Source: Chthoniobacterales bacterium
GTDB lineage: Bacteria > Verrucomicrobiota > Verrucomicrobiia > Chthoniobacterales > JAATET01
Direction of reading: 5' to 3'
DNA: 50,173 nt
NCBI GenBank assembly: GCA_036569045.1
Contig: DATCRI010000032.1
Span: 1 to 50,173, forward strand
Shown here: positions 1 to 8,816 of the stretch, piece by piece
Position numbering within the stretch: position 1 is the stretch's first letter
Layout of the letters: each line of letters starts with the position of its first letter
Position numbers and translations under genes: made by a program
The notes under the pieces: generated by a model
Told to the model about the DNA's origin: nothing
Database searches by the model: none
The model's input: the letters and a program-made list of their open reading frames with translations, nothing else

Positions 1-2
1 AA

Positions 3-2933
3 TATCAGCTGATTGCCACCAATTCCAACGGTCAGTCTCTTCCGACCAGAACGGCCATTGGACCCGCCACTCCACCCACTGCTCCGACTCCGACTCCGAC
101 TCCGACTCCGACTCCGACTCCGACTCCGACTCCGACTCCGACTCCGACCCCGACTCCGACCCCGTCTCCGAACGGTTGCTCGGCACCTTTGCCGAAAGTG
201 ACATCGTCTTCGCCGGAGGATTATGACATTTTGGTGGAGACCGAATCCGTAGCGTTTTCTAAATATGGATTCGAGCCTTATCAGCCGGATCCTGATCCAG
301 AAAAACCTCCCAAGCGGTTCTTAGTTGAAACAATCACCAATCAATATGTTGGCGGAAATGCGGAAAGTGGCCCTAACGGGGTCAATGGGACGCGAAAGAC
401 GACTATTGATCCTAAAACAGGCCAGTCGACTAGTACAGGTCAAAGCTATGTCTCGGGAGGTGGAGATCCGGTTTCCCCGACCAGGAAAACTGGAACTGTC
501 CATTTGAGCAGCTTTGATGATCCGCCAAATAAAGAGGGCGATGATGGCACGATGAGAACTACCTCACTGTTATCTAACGAAAACACCACGAAGAAACTTG
601 TGAGTAATGGTAAAAGTCTTCTTGAATCATTCGAGGATGACTTTACCCCCGGTCAAGTATTTGCTTATCGCTCTATATGCCCCGACGAACTGATGTTTTT
701 CTATCAGAAGGTGCAGTTCAAGTTTAAATGGCACGGGGAAGTGTCGCCAGAACAGCGGCATCCAATTACTTATCTGTTGGTGTTTACTCCTCAAGATGAC
801 CCCAAAACGCATGACATCGATGAAAGCGAAAAGCCTGAAGTTTTAGAGTCGGTTCAGTGGAATGGACAAACAACAGAGTCTCAAGTCTGGACTGTGGACC
901 CAGATTCTAGAAAAGCGGACACCAATGGACAGTATGAGTTGATTCCGGTTGAATTGATTCGCGACGACGCATTGCGAACTGACGACGATGATCTAAAGAC
1001 TAAGTTGGATGATTGGCCGGAATCCGGGCCTGAGCCAAGGTCGCCTAAGTATCTATTTGCGCAAGATGATAACATCTTCGTGAGAGTGACAGGACCGCAG
1101 GGGATGGGTAATGACAAAATTAAGGTGAAGGTCACCAGCGAGAGCGATACGTCGGGGATTACTTTCGACTTAGCGGAAGCATCATCGGGAGTTTATATCA
1201 ATAAATCGCCAGCCAAACCGCTGAGATTGGGAGACAAGACAGAAACCAAATCCGATTGCGTTACCATCAAAGTGGTGGATGAAGAGGTACTGACGTTTAC
1301 GCTTATATTTAACGGAGTGGATACTGGCAAATTCGCTGATGTGATGGTAGATCGCGGCGAATTTGCATCCTGCGGTATCAATGTATTTTATGGCAATTCA
1401 ACGGGCGATAGGACAACGATGCGCACGCAAGCGATCACGAATACAAAATTGTTCGATGTCGGCGATGGAAATTATCCCGACAATGTCGTTGCCCAAGGCA
1501 ACGCGATGAAGACCTTTATCAAGAATGCCGGTGAAAATAAGGCAGAGAATAAAGAAGCTGATCTATTAAGTGTTAGCAGTCATGGCGAACCGAGTGGCGA
1601 TTTAGGAGACAATGACTCCAATAACTCACATACATACACAGGGAATACCTGCACGATCGGCAATCTTACATTCACGCATGGAGACACCTTTGGTGGCGGA
1701 AGAATCATCAGCCCTAGTGACATTAGCAACTCCGCGGACTGGAATAACGATGTCGAGTGGGTAATGCTTTTATCATGCTTGCAACTAAATCCGGCAGGCG
1801 GTGGCAGCGGAAACTGGGATGATGCTCTCTATGGAAACCCCCGCCGCATACATGCCATTCTAGGAGCATATAAACCCTTTTCCGGCGATTTGCGTTCTCG
1901 GCTGACCGACTTCTGGACAGACCTTCGTGACAACCGAGCATATATTATTGACGCATATACCAAGGCATTGGGTTCAGGAAGCAACCCGGAGCCTTGGGCA
2001 TACGTAGCCGTCTCATCAAATATGAAAGATAGGCTGAAAGAACTCACGCGTGACAGAAACCAAGTAGTTCAATTCAGTTATTTGGATGCAACTTCCATTT
2101 GTGGACGTGCCGGCGCAGAAAACGGCCCATTCACACAGGTTATTGACGGCGGACGAGGACTACTTAGAACAGATATACCCTCTGTTCAAGGGCGAGTTGT
2201 GCGGAAGGGATTGCATTTGTCCCTGCCAAGAAATCCGCTGAAGCCCAGGACATCCGCCATTGGAAAAATGATGCCTCGCACTCCGGGCGGCCGTCAGGAC
2301 TTTATTGGGCGGACAACCATTGAAACTGCGAGTATTAAATCCAGCTTAGCGCAGGAAGAAGCGGCAAAATTAGCCGAGAACTACATTAGTGCGCAGTTCC
2401 CCGAACTCGCAACGCAGATTCAACTGAAGGAAGTTAGCTCTCGGGTCAGCGGAACATGGCAAAAAGATGGAAAAAGGAAATCTTGGACGAACGGATATTT
2501 GGTTCAATTTTCGTTAATGAAGGATGACCTTCCAATTTTCGATAGCTATGTGAATGTCACTATTAACGGCAATAGCGTGGACGGAATCAGCTTCCGTGCT
2601 TACAATGTAAGTGGAACGGGAGTTGCCAATACTGCATCCCTCGGCAATGACATTGCCCAACCGATGGATGCTCGAGTTTGCATGTCCGCCGCCATGTCAA
2701 AGTTGAGGCCAGCGCTGGATATTCAGGACAAATATGAAGTGCTGTCGGCGGAGTTGTGTTATGTAAATCAATCTGTCGCCGAAGGAGGCGAAGCTGATCT
2801 TAATCGTGAATTCGTCCCGGCATGGCATTACGTAATAAACACCGCATACAAAGGACCGGAATTTCGACCAAAGCTTTTTCATGTATGGTTAGATCCGGCA
2901 ACTGGAAATCTAATAGGCAAGAAGCCATATTAA
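3..2933 (+). CDS. Large extracellular protein, 5'-truncated; Pro-Thr linker, possible clan-CD-like peptidase core
   Basis: The frame is open from the window edge, so the start lies upstream. The first residues (YQLIATNSNGQSLP) look like the last strand of an Ig- or fibronectin-like domain, followed by a linker of about 27 residues of alternating Pro and Thr, then about 900 residues. Residue numbers count from the TTG at 189, which is only a possible internal start. Near the middle a strand ending LLSVSSHGE (His465) is followed about 65 residues later by WVMLLSCLQL (Cys530). Hydrophobic-His-Gly and hydrophobic-Ser/Ala-Cys are hallmarks of clan CD peptidases such as gingipain and caspase, so a protease-like fold is plausible but unproven. 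The C-terminal 200 residues resemble a PepSY-like region. The gene is followed after one base by a lipoprotein gene and is visibly AT-richer than the rest of the window. It may be an uncharacterised DUF family. Confidence 0.7.
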   Translation, partial: YQLIATNSNGQSLPTRTAIGPATPPTAPTPTPTPTPTPTPTPTPTPTPTPTPTPSPNGCSAPLPKVTSSSPEDYDILVETESVAFSKYGFEPYQPDPDPEKPPKRFLVETITNQYVGGNAESGPNGVNGTRKTTIDPKTGQSTSTGQSYVSGGGDPVSPTRKTGTVHLSSFDDPPNKEGDDGTMRTTSLLSNENTTKKLVSNGKSLLESFEDDFTPGQVFAYRSICPDELMFFYQKVQFKFKWHGEVSPEQRHPITYLLVFTPQDDPKTHDIDESEKPEVLESVQWNGQTTESQVWTVDPDSRKADTNGQYELIPVELIRDDALRTDDDDLKTKLDDWPESGPEPRSPKYLFAQDDNIFVRVTGPQGMGNDKIKVKVTSESDTSGITFDLAEASSGVYINKSPAKPLRLGDKTETKSDCVTIKVVDEEVLTFTLIFNGVDTGKFADVMVDRGEFASCGINVFYGNSTGDRTTMRTQAITNTKLFDVGDGNYPDNVVAQGNAMKTFIKNAGENKAENKEADLLSVSSHGEPSGDLGDNDSNNSHTYTGNTCTIGNLTFTHGDTFGGGRIISPSDISNSADWNNDVEWVMLLSCLQLNPAGGGSGNWDDALYGNPRRIHAILGAYKPFSGDLRSRLTDFWTDLRDNRAYIIDAYTKALGSGSNPEPWAYVAVSSNMKDRLKELTRDRNQVVQFSYLDATSICGRAGAENGPFTQVIDGGRGLLRTDIPSVQGRVVRKGLHLSLPRNPLKPRTSAIGKMMPRTPGGRQDFIGRTTIETASIKSSLAQEEAAKLAENYISAQFPELATQIQLKEVSSRVSGTWQKDGKRKSWTNGYLVQFSLMKDDLPIFDSYVNVTINGNSVDGISFRAYNVSGTGVANTASLGNDIAQPMDARVCMSAAMSKLRPALDIQDKYEVLSAELCYVNQSVAEGGEADLNREFVPAWHYVINTAYKGPEFRPKLFHVWLDPATGNLIGKKPY
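84..164 (+). repeat. Hexanucleotide repeat (CCGACT)n encoding a Pro-Thr linker
   Basis: About thirteen copies of CCGACT, with some CCGACC variants near the end, encode alternating Pro-Thr in the frame of the first gene. Such linkers separate extracellular domains. Six-base units keep the reading frame, so copy-number change would alter linker length but not switch the gene off. Confidence 0.9.
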
Positions 2934-2934
2934 A

Positions 2935-3441
2935 ATGAATCTATTAACACTCTCATTAACATTCATCATTGCTTGCGCTTCGTGCGGACATGGCAAAAGC
3001 GGTGACTGGGAATATCAATACGAAGTCATAAATCCTGGAACGCGAAGCGAATATGTAAGCGGAACCTTGCTCTATAAAGGCTCCCTAATTTCAGAGAAGC
3101 TTCAGCATGTGATCACACCTGTTGGAGAATTCGTTTTTAGACCAGCAAAGGGCTGGGGAGGATCAGTGCCATTCAAATGGCTGCCGGCAACTTTAGATCA
3201 GAACGGAGCTGTCACAACAGTAGCGCGTGAAGCGGAAGTTAAGAATTTACTGGCAAATAAAGGCAAAGGGTTTCGAGTGACGGAGGTCAAGGGAGCCGGC
3301 CCGGTCTCCTCCGAAGCCGCTCTTTCGGGGGCGTTGGAACAACCGCCCAAGGGTGTGGGAACAGATTGGCTTTATGCAGTCGGCACCAGTCAATGGGTTA
3401 ATCCCACAAAAATCCCGCAGGCCCTCAAAGAGAATCCCTGA
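2935..3441 (+). CDS. Small predicted lipoprotein, unknown function
   Basis: This 168-residue protein starts one base after the stop of the preceding gene, so the two are probably co-transcribed. The N-terminus (MNLLTLSLTFIIACASCG) is a short hydrophobic signal with Cys residues placed like a lipobox. The mature part (GDWEYQYEVINPGTRSEYVSG onward) reads like a compact beta-rich domain. I recognise no family. The tight coupling suggests a role with the neighbouring large secreted protein, perhaps as anchor or partner; that is inference. Confidence 0.7.
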   Translation: MNLLTLSLTFIIACASCGHGKSGDWEYQYEVINPGTRSEYVSGTLLYKGSLISEKLQHVITPVGEFVFRPAKGWGGSVPFKWLPATLDQNGAVTTVAREAEVKNLLANKGKGFRVTEVKGAGPVSSEAALSGALEQPPKGVGTDWLYAVGTSQWVNPTKIPQALKENP

Positions 3442-3504
3442 AGATACGTAGCGTTGCGCATCTTCTTAACCGGGGCCTCGCCTACGTCAACTCGGCATGC
3501 TCCA

Positions 3505-3717
3505 ATGAAAACCAAACGGGGGAAAGCGATCTGGCTTTGCTGCATCACCGCCATTGCCGTCGTTGCGGGTTGGGCTGTCCTGACGTTGACTCCGGTTCAA
3601 GAGGGGCCGGGAGCGATTACGGCACTGGCAAATATCCCCAACTACATCGCGTTACTGCTCTGCTTTTTTGCAGCGACAGCCTGTGTGATCTTCCGACCAC
3701 GACATCCCCAAAAATAA
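3505..3717 (+). CDS. Small membrane protein with two predicted TM segments
   Basis: The ATG at 3505 gives 70 residues. A basic N-terminus (MKTKRGKA) precedes a first hydrophobic helix around residues 8-28 (IWLCCITAIAVVAGWAVLTL) and a second around 45-62 (YIALLLCFFAATACVIF), ending in a basic tail. The reading frame stays open upstream to 3454, but that part looks non-coding. No family is recognised. It lies 63 bases after the lipoprotein gene on the same strand. Confidence 0.45.
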   Translation: MKTKRGKAIWLCCITAIAVVAGWAVLTLTPVQEGPGAITALANIPNYIALLLCFFAATACVIFRPRHPQK

Positions 3718-3796
3718 ATTACCGCTTCCCACCGCGGGGTGCAGTAGCGGCGTGCTCATGCACGGTCAAAAATGCTTCGGCCATCTCGATGACCTT

Positions 3797-4120
3797 CTAC
3801 TGCTGGCGGCGGGGCAGTTTGGAAACGCGGTCGAAAACCTGACCGAAACGGCCGTCGGCGGGTTGCGCTCGACGCGTCTTCACCTCGCCGACTAAATCGG
3901 CAACGGTGACGCCGAGAATTTTCGACATGGGCACCAGCACTTTTGAATTCGGCAGGTTGCCGGTGGGTTCCCAGAATCCAACATTTGAGTGATGCTCGCC
4001 GAGCAATCGGGCGAGTTCACGCTGCGAAATCCCTGCGGCTTGACGCAGAGTTTTGAGATGAGATGCGGCTTGGGCTATGTCGCGATCATCGTAAGAGACG
4101 AGCATAAAACTGGCTTGCAT
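3797..4120 (-). CDS. XRE-family helix-turn-helix regulator
   Basis: This 107-residue protein has an XRE/Cro-type DNA-binding domain, with the helix-turn-helix in AAGISQRELARLLGEHHSNV followed by the usual third and fourth helices (KVLVPMSKILGVTVADLVG). The start at 4120 was chosen because the HTH begins about 30 residues in and the extra N-terminal part of the longer frame (to 4249) is not family-like; a second ATG at 4105 is possible. The C-terminus is a basic tail. An inverted repeat lies three bases upstream of the start, suggesting self-repression. Such regulators are typical of mobile elements and toxin-antitoxin modules, but I see no clear toxin next to it. Confidence 0.75.
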   Translation of the reverse strand: MQASFMLVSYDDRDIAQAASHLKTLRQAAGISQRELARLLGEHHSNVGFWEPTGNLPNSKVLVPMSKILGVTVADLVGEVKTRRAQPADGRFGQVFDRVSKLPRRQQ

Positions 4121-4122
4121 GC

Positions 4123-4138
4123 GGCTATTGTAATAGCC
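4123..4138. promoter_or_regulatory. Inverted repeat GGCTATT-gt-AATAGCC, candidate XRE operator
   Basis: Perfect seven-base arms separated by two bases lie just before the start codon of the XRE regulator, in the space between it and the divergent gene at 4211. The size, symmetry and place match operators of self-regulating Cro/XRE repressors. Binding by the neighbour is inferred. Confidence 0.5.
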
Positions 4139-4210
4139 ATACGCGGAAGGAGAATTTAATCTTGACGCTTTTTTGAATACAACCGGACTTCGAAGTAGTA
4201 AAATCGATCC

Positions 4211-4507
4211 ATGCGAAAGCGGGCTGAGCGTTCTCCCAACGAACAGCAACAGTATGTTCTGATCGCACGCTGGCTTGATTACATGACCTGCCGGTTTTCA
4301 CGCCCCGGTCGAATCCAGAGGGCACGACGCGGTGTTCCAAGTAACGGCAATACGGACGTAGAGGAGGCTACCGCGGAAGAGATCGTGAGCTATCCCGAGC
4401 TTCTCCCACTGGTGAAAGAGACTCTGTTTGAGAAGTGGTTTTGGGTAGGGGTTTGTGTAGTCGCCAACATTGTTTTAGCCATTGTGAACGCGGTCAGCGG
4501 GTTCTGA
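4211..4507 (+). CDS. Small hypothetical protein with C-terminal TM helix
   Basis: This 98-residue frame is divergent from the XRE gene. The N-terminal half is basic, the middle acidic (VEEATAEEIVSYPELLPLVKE), and the end is one clear hydrophobic helix (FWVGVCVVANIVLAIVNAV). The acidic helix followed by a TM anchor looks protein-like, whereas residues 20-45 are compositionally odd, so a later start is possible. Its stop is adjacent to the first possible start of the next gene (4508). No family is recognised. Confidence 0.45.
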   Translation: MRKRAERSPNEQQQYVLIARWLDYMTCRFSRPGRIQRARRGVPSNGNTDVEEATAEEIVSYPELLPLVKETLFEKWFWVGVCVVANIVLAIVNAVSGF

Positions 4508-4540
4508 ATGCGGCGCGGGACTTGCTCTCCAATTCGGCCC

Positions 4541-5368
4541 ATGCGTTTCGTCCTTCTCGCCCTCTGGCTTTTTTCGATTTCATCCACGATAGCCGCTCCG
4601 CTGACCGTCGTGACGTGGAATACGAAATGGCTTCCAGGCGGAAAGCCGAATGCCACCGCAGAGGCTCAGGCCACACAAATGAAGGTGGCGCAGGAGGTCG
4701 TCAAGAAGCTGAACCCCGACATCCTGTTTTTGCAGGAGGTCCGGGATTACAAGGCCGCCGAGGAACTATGTTCGGTTGTGCCTGGCCTGACGGTGGCGGC
4801 CGCGAGCAATTTCAGCGGTCGGCCGCAAAATTGCATCATTGCGTCGAAGCTCCCGGCGGATTCGGGGTGGTATGCGCTGTGGAAGCCCTCGTTGGGAGCA
4901 GATAACCCTCCGCGTGGTTATGCGTTCGCGGCCTTCAAGCTACCCTCAAGCGGTCTCCTGCTAACGTATTCGGTGCACATGAAGAGCAACCTAGGCGGGA
5001 TCGAAAGGAACATTGCAGCTCGTGAGGAATCGGCCAAGCAGCTGCTCGAACATGCCAAAGAAATGATGCGGCTTTACTGGCCCCGGGGCGGAAAAAGAAT
5101 CATCATTGCCGGTGATTTCAACGCCGACATTGGCGGACCGAGATTCGGCAAGGATCGCAGCGTCGAATCGCTGCAGAAGGCTGGCCTCCAATGGGTCTGG
5201 AAAGGCGTTTCCCCGTCCGCCCGCGTCACCATCCCCGGCAATGGGAAATATCCTGCTGACTGTTTCGACCACATGCTATTTTCCGGACTCAAGCTCGCGA
5301 GCGTTTCCGTCGTGAAAGCTGTTCCTCCCTCGGATCACAACGCCGTTCTGGCGACATTCAATCCGTGA
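4541..5368 (+). CDS. Secreted endonuclease/exonuclease/phosphatase (EEP) family protein
   Basis: This 275-residue protein has a signal peptide (RFVLLALWLFSISSTIAA) and then the EEP fold shared by DNase I, exonuclease III and some phosphodiesterases. The key motifs appear in order: VTWNTKWL (metal-site Asn), ILFLQEV (metal-binding Glu), TYSVHMKS (a catalytic-site His), IIAGDFNAD (Asp/Asn pair) and the C-terminal SDHNAV (Asp-His). All appear intact, so it is probably an active, exported metal-dependent hydrolase. DNA, RNA and phospholipid are all possible substrates. ATG 4541 places the hydrophobic core directly after MR; ATG 4508 would add eleven residues. Confidence 0.85.
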   Translation: MRFVLLALWLFSISSTIAAPLTVVTWNTKWLPGGKPNATAEAQATQMKVAQEVVKKLNPDILFLQEVRDYKAAEELCSVVPGLTVAAASNFSGRPQNCIIASKLPADSGWYALWKPSLGADNPPRGYAFAAFKLPSSGLLLTYSVHMKSNLGGIERNIAAREESAKQLLEHAKEMMRLYWPRGGKRIIIAGDFNADIGGPRFGKDRSVESLQKAGLQWVWKGVSPSARVTIPGNGKYPADCFDHMLFSGLKLASVSVVKAVPPSDHNAVLATFNP

Positions 5369-5718
5369 ACACGCGCCCGCTGGCGCTGCAGGCTGGGCAA
5401 ACTGCGTGGATCGCCCGTCGCGAAAACGACGGCCTGCCCGACGAACTTTTGCACAATGCACCGGTCCTCGTCCTTTTCCTGGAGGGGCACTGGGCCTTTA
5501 TCCGTGACGGGGCGAGGAGACAACGACGCCTCGCCGTCAGCGCGCTAGACGCGGGCAGCGAATACCAAGGGCGAAGTGGCCACTGGTATGCCGAGGATCA
5601 CCCTCAAGTTCAGAGCGCACTCGTCACTTATAATCGAGAAGCTCGAAAGCGAGAGAGGCAACGAGGCCGAAGTCGCCCGGCTTCGGGGGATTCTCGACGC
5701 CACCCGGAAATCGACTAG
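5365..5718 (+). CDS. Hypothetical protein overlapping the EEP gene
   Basis: The GTG start overlaps the stop of the EEP gene by four bases, a layout typical of translational coupling. Residues 18-90 look protein-like (NDGLPDELLHNAPVLVLFLE, GHWYAEDHPQVQ), while the last 30 residues are basic and low in complexity. No family is recognised. A terminator-like structure lies about 80 bases downstream, consistent with this being the last gene of a unit with the nuclease. The reading frame could instead be a chance opening. Confidence 0.4.
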   Translation: MNTRPLALQAGQTAWIARRENDGLPDELLHNAPVLVLFLEGHWAFIRDGARRQRRLAVSALDAGSEYQGRSGHWYAEDHPQVQSALVTYNREARKRERQRGRSRPASGDSRRHPEID

Positions 5719-5780
5719 CCGTTCAGGAATATCTCCGGAACCCCGTTGCGAAGGTCGGAGACCTCTGGCATTGTTGCCTC

Positions 5781-5838
5781 TGTTCCGGGGGGAACAGTAG
5801 GCCGTCGTGGCATTCGTCGCGGCGGCCTACAATTTTTC
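5781..5838 (+). terminator. Double hairpin with T-run, likely rho-independent terminator
   Basis: A first hairpin TGTTCC-gggg-GGAACA (5781-5796) is followed directly by a second with arms GTAGGCCG (5797-5804) and CGGCCTAC (5823-5830), then AATTTTTCTT. The run of T on the plus strand suits termination of the genes starting at 4541 and 5365. The rest of 5719-6039 shows no convincing gene. Confidence 0.65.
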
Positions 5839-6039
5839 TTCCCTAGCCGCGCGTCGGGGAAGTGCCTGATTGGCAAGGCACTGTGAAGCAGTCACGATCA
5901 CTTCATATTTCCTCCCCACGCGAACGGCGCGACCGGGTCATGCAATCCTCGGCTCGCGCCGTCTTTCTTCTGGAAAGCGTCACGCTCAAAGATGCCCTTG
6001 CCACACCGATGTCCAAGGTCCTGCGCTATCATCTCGACC

Positions 6040-6321
6040 ATGAGCAGAATGAGCAAAGCCGCTCGCCTCGAGCTAATCCGGCGCATTCGTGAAGACGGAC
6101 CGAAGGCGTATCTCGATCCCCGCAAGCCGGTTCACTTGATTGCCGAACAGCTTCCTCCGGAGGGGGAGCAGGTCAAGGTGTGGTGGGAATCGGGGAATGG
6201 CACCGGAGGTGTCTGGCTTGGTGATCGCTGGGAACTTCGGGATGAAGGCGATTTTTCGGCCTTCGGAGAACTCGTGAAGTGGCAGAGGATTCCACCGGCG
6301 CATTCAACGCCTTCCCCCTAA
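6040..6321 (+). CDS. Small DUF551-like protein, first of two
   Basis: This frame gives 93 residues from ATG 6040 (ATG 6049 is also possible). The start region is charged and helical (SKAARLELIRRIREDG), and the second half is a compact domain (VWLGDRWELRDEGDF) ending in KWQRIPP. The ending W-Q-R-I-x-P is shared with the next plus-strand gene (HWQRIGP) and resembles the end of DUF551 proteins, which occur mostly in phages and mobile elements. Function is unknown. It sits in the integrase-proximal part of the element. Confidence 0.5.
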   Translation: MSRMSKAARLELIRRIREDGPKAYLDPRKPVHLIAEQLPPEGEQVKVWWESGNGTGGVWLGDRWELRDEGDFSAFGELVKWQRIPPAHSTPSP

Positions 6322-6398
6322 ATTTGGACTCCGCTGCACCCGCGTATCTGACGTAGGGACCCGTCCAAAGATGACGGGCACCTCGAACCTTGAGCAGC

Positions 6399-6635
6399 AT
6401 GGCTTGGATTTCTGCCGCAATTCCTCCCCCATCTACCGGCCGCTGCGCTCTATGGCTTTATCGCGCGGGCGTTATTTTCGAAGGCGGCTATTCGGGGGTG
6501 AAGTTTGTCGGGCATGATGGCGCTGAAGTGCCCGGGATCACGCATTGGCAGCGCATCGGCCCGACTGGTCGGCCACCGTCGTCCCGACCTCTTCGGAAAT
6601 GGCACAAGGTGCGGCAATCGCATTTCTCGTTTTGA
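6399..6635 (+). CDS. Small DUF551-like protein, second of two
   Basis: This 78-residue frame begins MAWISAAIPPP and reaches GITHWQRIGP after about 50 residues. A start with W-I-S, a proline-containing turn, and an I-T-H-W-x-x-x-P end are the pattern I associate with DUF551. A TTG at 6390 would add three residues. The tail after the domain is basic and may be non-family. It is convergent with the Cys-rich gene at 6688. Together with the preceding gene it suggests a duplicated small family in this element. Confidence 0.5.
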   Translation: MAWISAAIPPPSTGRCALWLYRAGVIFEGGYSGVKFVGHDGAEVPGITHWQRIGPTGRPPSSRPLRKWHKVRQSHFSF

Positions 6636-6687
6636 GCTGAGATTGCGATCGATGTAGCTCGCCAGCATCTCCCTCAAAGCATGCGCT

Positions 6688-6879
6688 TTACCACGGTCGG
6701 CAAACGCTGCAAGTGCCGCCGCTTTTCGCGCAGTGACCGCATGAGCTGCAGCTCGTGCAAGCTGAACATGGCCCACTATTTCCGACGCACTTCCCGGCGA
6801 AGGCAGCGGGGGAGATGAGGAAAACCGAAGCGGCAATTGTGCACGCTACCGGTTTCTCTTTCTCCGCCTCTTTGCCCAT
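6688..6879 (-). CDS. Cys-rich small secreted protein, coupled to the integrase
   Basis: This 63-residue protein has a charged start (MGKEAEKEKP), a hydrophobic signal-like segment ending SPAAFA, and a mature part of about 35 residues with eight cysteines, mostly spaced C-x2-C or C-x4-C, plus a GGTCSVC end. The regular cysteine pattern would not be expected by chance. The start codon lies inside the last 34 bases of the integrase gene and is preceded by an AGAGG motif ten bases upstream, so it is probably translated from the same message. I have a vague memory of similar Cys-rich secreted peptides in other environmental bacteria but cannot name a family. Metal binding or a disulfide-knotted peptide are possible roles. 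Confidence 0.6.
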   Translation of the reverse strand: MGKEAEKEKPVACTIAASVFLISPAAFAGKCVGNSGPCSACTSCSSCGHCAKSGGTCSVCRPW

Positions 6880-8342
6880 GCTGTTTCTACCTCTTCATCA
6901 GATGAGCTTTCCCCCAAACTGAGTATTTGACGCATTTGCTCGACAGTGAAGGCACTCACTTCGACGGCTGGTGGGCGAATGTCATAATACGCTGCGGCAG
7001 CCGAAGGCATCACGAGGTTCAGATAGTGCTCGGCAATTACCGCGGGGCTATTGCCGGATTCCGTGGCAACCTTGGCAATATCACGAGTTAACGCCACTTT
7101 GTAGGAAATAGCGGAATGCCTCAGCCCATTGTTCGGCCAGGGCTTCAACACGATGCCTTTTTCGGACACGTCCCGCAGCAAGGCTTGAAGTTGTGCGCTG
7201 TGTCGGCCTGGTGCTGTTGCCGTAAAACCGGACTTCACCCGTGCGATGTCGAAACGATACCGGAAATCTGTAGGGACGACCGGGCCGGATTTGCGGGCGT
7301 AGGGGAGCAGCCACTCTACCGCATTTTCGGGAATCTCGACCGTGCGGCGCTTTTTCGTTTTCGCGAGCTTGGCACCCACAACAACAACGCGCTCGTCAAG
7401 GTGGACGTCCGACCAGTCCAACCGGAGAAGCTGCCCGGTTTTTTCCCCCGGTTTCTTGTTCGCTCGTTTGATGAGTTCCGATTGCCGGAGGTTGGAAAAT
7501 CCTGCGATCACCGTGCCGGGAATGGTATGCTCGTCGCCGTTGAGGAGGAGAGATTGAACTTCCTTCACGGCCAGTATTTCAATTTCCTCGAACTCCTCCC
7601 CGCTCTCGACGATTTCGATGTCCGTTGCAACGGAGGCGTCACACCATTTGCGAGCGTTGGCGCTGCCGAAGCTCCAAAGCGTGCACAGATCGCGGCGAAA
7701 TGTGTTGCGAGTGCCGGGTTGCTCGAATTGTGAGAGGAAGCTTTCAAGATCTTCCGTTGTGTAGGCGGAAAGCGCCTTGCCCACATTCACCGCCTGCTCG
7801 GGGTCGTCGCTCACAGCGAGCTTCGGGAAAATCTTTTTCAAATCCAAAATCTGTTCACGGGTACGCGTTTCTTCGACAGGGTAGGCAGTCAGCAATCGTC
7901 CGGGGCGATAGGCTAGCCGCTGGCAATAGTCGTCTGACTTTCCAGCCAGCCTCTTCGAGCGTACAAGCTCTGCAATCGCGTCGATGAGGGGGACCGAAGA
8001 GTAAAGACGACGGAAGTGAGCGGTTCCAATTTCCAGCGCGTCAGCAATGGTCTTTCCGTATCCCCGCAACTCGTGGAAATAGCGTTCGTGGAGGTCGAGG
8101 GCAAACTTGATGGCATCTCGCGGTTGCAGGTCGAACGCCGCCAATGCCGGTTCTTCAAAGCTCTTTGTGCCATGCGTGGCAAGGTCCGTACGGAAAGTTT
8201 CCGCCCATTCTTCTGCCTGCTTTTTCGTCGGGAAGAACTGACGTGGGCCAATGCCATTTTTTCGAGCGTCAGCAAGCCAGACTGGCTTGCCGTGGTTGAT
8301 TGTCCTTTTGACCTTCGGCCATGCGTTTTTCGCCTTCGACAT
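6846..8342 (-). CDS. Tyrosine-type recombinase/integrase
   Basis: This 498-residue protein begins with a short basic region (KAKNAWPKVKRTI), followed by an arm/core-binding part and a C-terminal catalytic domain. Catalytic landmarks are the first Arg in AGFSNLRQSEL, a Lys-rich beta hairpin (AKTKKRRTVEIP), the second Arg in NGLRHSAISY, and the nucleophile Tyr in AEHYLNL. Both usual histidines are Asn (the HxxR box reads NGLR, and GNSP replaces GH), a variant I know from integrases of PVC bacteria. ATG 8342 was preferred over 8378 because the sequence from there is basic and integrase-like. The gene starts about 55 bases from the tRNA-Glu fragment, as expected for an integrase beside its attachment site. 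Confidence 0.92.
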   Translation of the reverse strand: MSKAKNAWPKVKRTINHGKPVWLADARKNGIGPRQFFPTKKQAEEWAETFRTDLATHGTKSFEEPALAAFDLQPRDAIKFALDLHERYFHELRGYGKTIADALEIGTAHFRRLYSSVPLIDAIAELVRSKRLAGKSDDYCQRLAYRPGRLLTAYPVEETRTREQILDLKKIFPKLAVSDDPEQAVNVGKALSAYTTEDLESFLSQFEQPGTRNTFRRDLCTLWSFGSANARKWCDASVATDIEIVESGEEFEEIEILAVKEVQSLLLNGDEHTIPGTVIAGFSNLRQSELIKRANKKPGEKTGQLLRLDWSDVHLDERVVVVGAKLAKTKKRRTVEIPENAVEWLLPYARKSGPVVPTDFRYRFDIARVKSGFTATAPGRHSAQLQALLRDVSEKGIVLKPWPNNGLRHSAISYKVALTRDIAKVATESGNSPAVIAEHYLNLVMPSAAAAYYDIRPPAVEVSAFTVEQMRQILSLGESSSDEEVETAWAKRRRKRNR

Positions 8343-8396
8343 GATTCGAATGTTGGCAGCAAATTGGCAGCAAATCAACAGTTACTCTGTTAATCA

Positions 8397-8445
8397 TGGC
8401 CCTCTCAAGGCCGGTGCACGGGTTCGATTCCCGTAGGCGCTGCCA
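8397..8445 (+). other. Orphan 3' half of tRNA-Glu(CTC), likely attachment site
   Basis: The sequence folds as the 3' half of a tRNA: anticodon stem TGGCC/GGCCG around the loop CTCTCAA (anticodon CTC, Glu), variable loop GTGC, T-arm ACGGG-TTCGATT-CCCGT, acceptor strand AGGCGCT, discriminator G and encoded CCA. No matching 5' acceptor (AGCGCCT or a near match) or D-arm exists upstream, so this is not a working tRNA. A fragment of this exact extent beside an integrase is the usual signature of attR. An inverted repeat CCACTC/GAGTGG (8443-8464) follows and may be the old tRNA terminator. Confidence 0.75.
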
Positions 8446-8744
8446 CTCTTCTCTCGGGGAGTGGACTTCCAAAATCTCCGCATTGCCCGTGTGATTTTCG
8501 GATGCGTCATCCGGTGCAATCCCGCACTTTCCCAGATGCTGCCGGTGGGCGCGAGGCCCCGATCGTCACTTTGCTCCATTCCCTGCTGGCGCGCGAAGCC
8601 GGCTGCCGAGTCGAATTGCGGCAGATCCAGCCAAGTCGACGGAGTCATCGCAATCCTGAACGTGTCGTTCGATGAGAACTCCATAGTCACAAAAGCGACC
8701 TCGCGTTGAGAGCCGATGGCACCCCCGAGACGATTGAAAGAGGG
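8446..8744. other. Intergenic stretch with no convincing gene
   Basis: Apart from the short hairpin at its left edge, this stretch between the tRNA-Glu fragment and tRNA-Cys shows no gene I can support. Open frames exist on both strands but run into tRNA sequence or lack a recognisable start and composition. It could hold remnants of an older insertion. Confidence 0.5.
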
Positions 8745-8816
8745 AGGCGGAGACCGGAATCGAACCGGTGGATGGAGCTTTTGCAGAGCTCTGCCTTACC
8801 ACTTGGCTACTCCGCC
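8745..8816 (-). tRNA. tRNA-Cys(GCA)
   Basis: The minus strand reads GGCGGAG at the 5' acceptor, a D-arm TAGCCAAGTGGTAAGGC, an anticodon loop CTGCAAA (GCA), and a T-arm CCGGTTCGAATCCGG closed by CTCCGCC with discriminator U, which is the identity base for Cys. CCA is not encoded. All stems pair. Confidence 0.95.

Follow-up and report, generated by a model that had tools for sequence, protein, structure and literature searches.

A divergent DUF6345 protein of a Chthoniobacterales bacterium with a predicted clan CD peptidase core and a C-terminal FTP-PepSY module

Results and discussion

At the left end of a 50,173-nucleotide stretch of DNA from a Chthoniobacterales bacterium (contig DATCRI010000032.1; hereafter the window) lies a truncated gene whose predicted product joins two parts: a core for which a caspase/haemoglobinase fold with a His/Cys dyad is well supported by structure prediction, and a C-terminus resembling the propeptides of M4 and M36 metalloproteases. 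By its sequence matches, the core is a divergent DUF6345 domain (PF19872). We consider it fairly probable that the protein is an exported clan CD peptidase that is kept latent by, or folded together with, a dedicated FTP-PepSY module. The wider proposal, which we favour only slightly, is that DUF6345 proteins are in general exported clan CD peptidases under FTP-PepSY control, with the module fused C-terminally, fused N-terminally or encoded by a separate overlapping downstream gene, and that a metalloprotease propeptide has here been reused both in cis and in trans.

Gene structure and genomic setting

The reading frame (Table 1) lacks its 5' end: the first base of the window is base 1 of contig C32, and the contig edge cuts off the 5' part of the gene. 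The first-pass annotation, made from the sequence letters, had described a truncated gene with an Ig-like part, a Pro-Thr linker and the motifs LLSVSSHGE and WVMLLSCLQL, coupled to a lipoprotein gene. This description holds: the frame is real and runs past the contig end, both motifs are found in the translation, a (PT)n stretch preceded by the end of an Ig/FN3-like repeat can be read in the sequence, and a lipoprotein-like frame follows the stop codon directly. The residues named His465 and Cys530 in that annotation were counted from a TTG at 189, and in full-frame numbering they become His527 and Cys592.

Table 1. Features of the protease gene and the adjoining gene in the window
Feature	Position	Strand	Remarks
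Open frame	3..2933	+	976 aa; truncated at the 5' end by the contig edge
End of Ig/FN3-like repeat	3..74	+	YQLIATNSNGQS...; from sequence
Pro-Thr repeat linker	72..170	+	about residues 24-56; from sequence
Residues 60-340, without recognised domain	180..1022	+	Pfam scan
Probable beta-sandwich (Ig-like) region before the core	1035..1337	+	alignment; partly common to relative L006/L007; fold tentatively read from sequence
DUF6345 core, clan CD (caspase/haemoglobinase) fold	1338..2045	+	residues 446-681; PF19872, AF2, fold searches
Predicted catalytic His527	1581..1583	+	His-Gly after strand 3; invariant column; model residue 88
Predicted catalytic Cys592	1776..1778	+	Ser-Cys after strand 4; invariant column; model residue 153
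FTP-PepSY (M4/M36 propeptide-like) module	2238..2930	+	about residues 746-976; Pfam, VIA, Foldseek
Small predicted lipoprotein gene	2935..3441	+	1 nt after stop; MNLLTLSLTFIIACASC, lipobox by eye

A Pfam scan of positions 60-1350 matched no domain. The NCBIfam matches to internalin and ClfB were caused by the low complexity of the PT-rich linker and were rejected. PT repeats also occur in two genes unrelated to this one, on contigs C86 and C55 of the same genome; these (PT)n matches were considered as the missing 5' end and discarded as parts of other genes. On C86, positions 62186-62310 belong to a protein that has a signal peptide, a probable cellulose-binding-like domain and a PT linker, and it too is broken inside PT repeats at a contig end.

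The small gene behind the protease gene matched no Pfam family and had no relatives in the 37 others of 38 relative genomes; this orphan predicted lipoprotein could be a third component of the system. The protease gene has a GC content of 48%, against 64% for the window to the right of 8830. It sits to the left of an integrase-like gene beside a tRNA-Cys (6846-8816, minus strand; Phage_integrase E 5e-5, below the cut-off), in which the tRNA-Cys occupies 8743-8816 and the DNA to the left of the integrase-like gene is richer in AT. Moreover, the protease gene was not found in three congeners. The low GC content, the integrase-like gene beside the tRNA and the absence from the congeners are consistent with a genomic island, which probably carries the protease gene; a search of the tRNA region found no exact repeat of at least 12 bases in the window. 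Near the island genes, a Cro/CI-type helix-turn-helix regulator is encoded at 3797-4249 on the minus strand (HTH_3, E 8e-8). The gene at 4508-5368 on the plus strand encodes a secreted-looking protein of the endonuclease/exonuclease/phosphatase family (PF03372, E 6e-13).

The DUF6345 core and its invariant residues

Membership of a DUF6345-type family had been suspected, and PF19872 matches the core above the cut-off of 26.9 bits both when residues 440-712 are scanned alone (27.8 bits) and in the genome search (27.1); with the whole 976 residues scanned, the score falls just below it (23.7 bits, E 3.8e-5). In an alignment of 24 diverse DUF6345 domains, which are 11-36% identical to the window protein, the only invariant columns are those of His527, Cys592 and Leu595, and the Gly beside the His is shared by the window protein and most members. 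A separate alignment method (E-INS-i) recovered the His in 24 of 25 and the Cys in 25 of 25 sequences. Within six window-type sequences the His, Gly and Cys of both motifs are invariant. These features agree with the definition of clan CD, namely a His/Cys dyad ending strands 3 and 4 with a Gly beside the His (PMC4357240).

One DUF6345 protein (L027 / L078) retains the Cys and seemingly lacks the conserved His, and it is possibly an inactive member.

The core could instead have a caspase fold that has lost catalysis and serves in binding, with the PepSY-like module serving a structural or adhesive purpose. Such a reading can draw on the seeming loss of the His in that one member and on the fact that a fold alone does not prove activity, but the His and the Cys are the sole invariant polar residues among the 24 domains, which is hard to account for without catalysis, and we regard a dead fold as quite improbable.

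The first-pass annotation had also placed the dyad at the spacing of gingipains and caspases. This holds only approximately. In several relatives the two residues are about 36-55 positions apart; in the window protein they are 65 apart, farther than in clan CD enzymes that have been characterised (42 in caspase-7 and 49 in MARTX-CPD; PMC4357240), because of a poorly modelled insert.

Sequence comparisons with the named clan CD families give weaker evidence than the fold. The Pfam scan of the 24 members produced a weak Peptidase_C25 match in two of them (best E 0.025) and no match to CHAT, so that membership of either family missed the cut-off; no C25 or CHAT match was found in the bacterium's own genome, and the core profile matched nothing among the PDB sequences. 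In a profile alignment with CHAT, the two His residues pair up, as do the two Cys residues (P = 0.03). The comparison with one C25 protein (P = 0.14) aligned the His-Gly region alone and was set aside. The assignment to clan CD is therefore a prediction based on the fold and the invariant dyad, and not on sequence homology.

Fold of the core

The AF2 model of residues 440-712, built from an alignment of 24 sequences, reached a pLDDT of 73.3 and a pTM of 0.78, with poor loops at model residues 103-107, 122-132 and 248-273. An earlier job with residues 401-976 and six sequences had given a good C-terminus and a poor core (pLDDT 47). The elements of the model follow the order b1-a-b2-a-b3-His-b4-Cys-a-b5-a-a-b6, which is the strand order of clan CD. 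The His and the Cys had been proposed to follow hydrophobic strands, and in the model His 88 comes after strand 3 (residues 82-86) and Cys 153 after strand 4 (147-150).

Fold searches place the predicted core among the clan CD peptidases. Foldseek returned SAVED-CHAT first (8tl0; E 4e-5, probability 1.00) and then caspase-1, and all 50 of the 50 best VIA-align matches listed belong to clan CD, with Z between 11 and 14. For instance, SAVED-CHAT was aligned with Z 14.1 (182 residues, rmsd 3.5), gingipain RgpB with Z 13.3 (192 residues, rmsd 3.5), MALT1 with Z 12.1 (181 residues, rmsd 3.5) and caspase-8 with Z 12.0 (183 residues, rmsd 3.4). Together with the dyad, present in 24 of 24 domains, the model thus supports the clan-CD-like core that had been suggested as a possibility.

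The GPI transamidase PIGK is also among the matches (Z 11.2), and DUF6345 occurs together with Ig, PKD and LCAT domains in surface proteins that are exported and built of several domains. Both observations would suit a role in attaching or processing surface proteins and not in general proteolysis, with the core acting as a clan CD transpeptidase or a sortase-like enzyme, comparable to GPI transamidase and PorU. However, neither a sorting-type partner nor a recurring substrate tail was observed, and the fold scores give C13 no preference over C14, C25 or CHAT; we consider this reading improbable.

The C-terminal module and its recurrence beside DUF6345

For the C-terminus, a PepSY-like domain had been proposed, and both sequence and structure point to it. 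DUF4901, the YcdB/YcdC domain, matches at E 4e-5 (24.1 bits, below the cut-off of 27) and is seen in five of six family members, and FTP is detected in three of the six (best E 0.013), in both cases below the cut-off. With the last 200 residues, VIA retrieved the propeptides of fungalysin (4k90_B, Z 10.8) and vibriolysin (3nqz_A, Z 10.5) and the PepSY domain of YpeB (5boi, Z 10.3), and Foldseek agrees (E 5.9e-5 and 3.4e-4). An M4/M36 propeptide-like fold of the predicted C-terminus is supported by these results. The module is C-terminal in six of the seven window-type proteins (the window protein, L007, L008, L009, L010, L011 and L038), the window protein included, while L010 ends without it.

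With this C-terminus as the query, a profile search hit the N-terminal half of one canonical DUF6345 protein and, at another locus, the gene adjoining a second. We then considered 20 other DUF6345 neighbourhoods, taken by their DUF6345 score alone, and a PepSY/FTP-like partner occurs at all 20. At six loci it is fused N-terminally (family A11), and at 14 it is an adjacent downstream gene (family A10), whose product of about 320 aa seems, judged by eye, to carry a signal peptide; the gene ends usually overlap. The partners at L087 and L074, two of the 14, were outside the A10 profile and were recovered by it at 3e-40 and 6e-40.

The three forms are linked to each other by profile comparison (P = 1.2e-4 for C-fused and separate, P = 6.9e-5 for C-fused and N-fused, P = 1.2e-5 for separate and N-fused; controls P = 0.47 and 0.65), and among 2165 ORFs the cross-form matches below E 0.05 were partner modules only. 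The separate and N-fused families have no Pfam FTP/PepSY match, and hence the label FTP-PepSY-like depends for them on these profile links. The same two parts in three arrangements suggest an unrecognised pair of protease and regulator, and the earlier idea of a built-in regulator is strengthened because the pairing recurs in this way.

Taxonomic distribution

The window gene is rare. The core had no match among 96 further genomes from the same genus and order, and a class sample of 384 genomes gave one match besides the window's own; further relatives of the core occur in the family of that match. One relative, in the Verrucomicrobia MAG LaPlata_bin-1618, is the same locus as G513 and was the sole find of the contig scan. 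No relatives were found in the plasmid and viral collections. Of 320 genomes from a related order, 22 contain DUF6345 genes, and a match to the family also occurs in the archaeon Methanosarcina acetivorans. In the relative at locus L012, a frame open at its 5' end (1-7446, plus strand; 2482 aa) combines an LCAT-like lipase, PKD, the DUF6345 core and an FTP-PepSY module, and the gene directly after it encodes a very large surface protein.

Proposed mechanism

In our preferred reading, the gene product would be an exported, surface-type clan CD cysteine peptidase with His527 and Cys592 as its dyad and the FTP-PepSY module at its C-terminus. By analogy with M4/M36 propeptides, the module may fold with the core and cover or distort the active site, and the peptidase would stay latent until the module is removed after export, either autocatalytically or by a second protease. 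Elsewhere among DUF6345 proteins, an N-terminal module or a separately exported product of the next gene could act in cis or in trans. Export of the window protein, its proteolytic activity, its inhibition or chaperoning by the module and its activation by cleavage are all inferred, and we know of no DUF6345 protein with demonstrated activity. Two members count against this reading, namely L010, a window-type protein without the module, and L027 with its seemingly missing His.

FTP/PepSY-like modules may also be adaptors or chaperones instead of inhibitors. An active peptidase whose module serves folding or targeting only, with no regulation, would be in keeping with M4 propeptides, which double as intramolecular chaperones. 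However, the module is retained in every arrangement, the separate gene included, and in M4 enzymes FTP and PepSY block premature activation (PMC5078317); a purely chaperoning or targeting module therefore seems to us rather unlikely, though worth keeping in view. For the preferred reading of a latent peptidase, there is precedent in both component families: FTP keeps M4/M36 proteases from becoming active too early and PepSY is believed to be a protease inhibitor (PMC5078317), and the clan CD enzyme legumain carries a self-inhibiting C-terminal domain (PMC4357240).

On this reading, DUF6345 acquires a function that can be tested; the Pfam copy that we searched lists none for it, and among open-access papers we found none on DUF6345 or PF19872. 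MEROPS has eight families in clan CD, none of them named DUF6345 (PMC12445089), and DUF6345 is probably a further one. The reading further suggests a regulatory role of PepSY/FTP modules for proteases other than zinc enzymes. Pairs for tests of binding and inhibition are at hand in the three arrangements, and the separate-gene partner makes inhibition in trans directly measurable.

Comparison with known systems

The kind of enzyme is already known, whereas the assignment of the DUF6345 family to it and the pairing with a propeptide of the metalloprotease type seem to be new. With other DUF6345 proteins, the window core has the invariant His and Cys in common; its subgroup differs by its divergence, by inserts around the core and by a module that is C-terminal and not N-terminal or separate. 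With CHAT, gingipain (C25), caspase and paracaspase (C14) and legumain (C13), the core shares the fold, the strand order, the His and then the Cys ending strands 3 and 4, and the Gly beside the His, but identity is about 10% and the window core has no sequence match to any PDB chain. To our knowledge, none of these four families uses an FTP-PepSY module. Legumain resembles the window protein in having a C-terminal domain on a clan CD enzyme, which in legumain is a self-inhibiting prodomain; we do not know this domain to be FTP-PepSY-like. The closest likeness of the window C-terminus is to the FTP and PepSY propeptides of M4/M36 enzymes such as vibriolysin MCP-02 and fungalysin (Z 10.5-10.8). 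There the module stands at the N-terminus and the protease under its control is a zinc enzyme, whereas in the window protein and other DUF6345 proteins it accompanies a predicted cysteine peptidase and may be C-terminal or encoded by a gene of its own.
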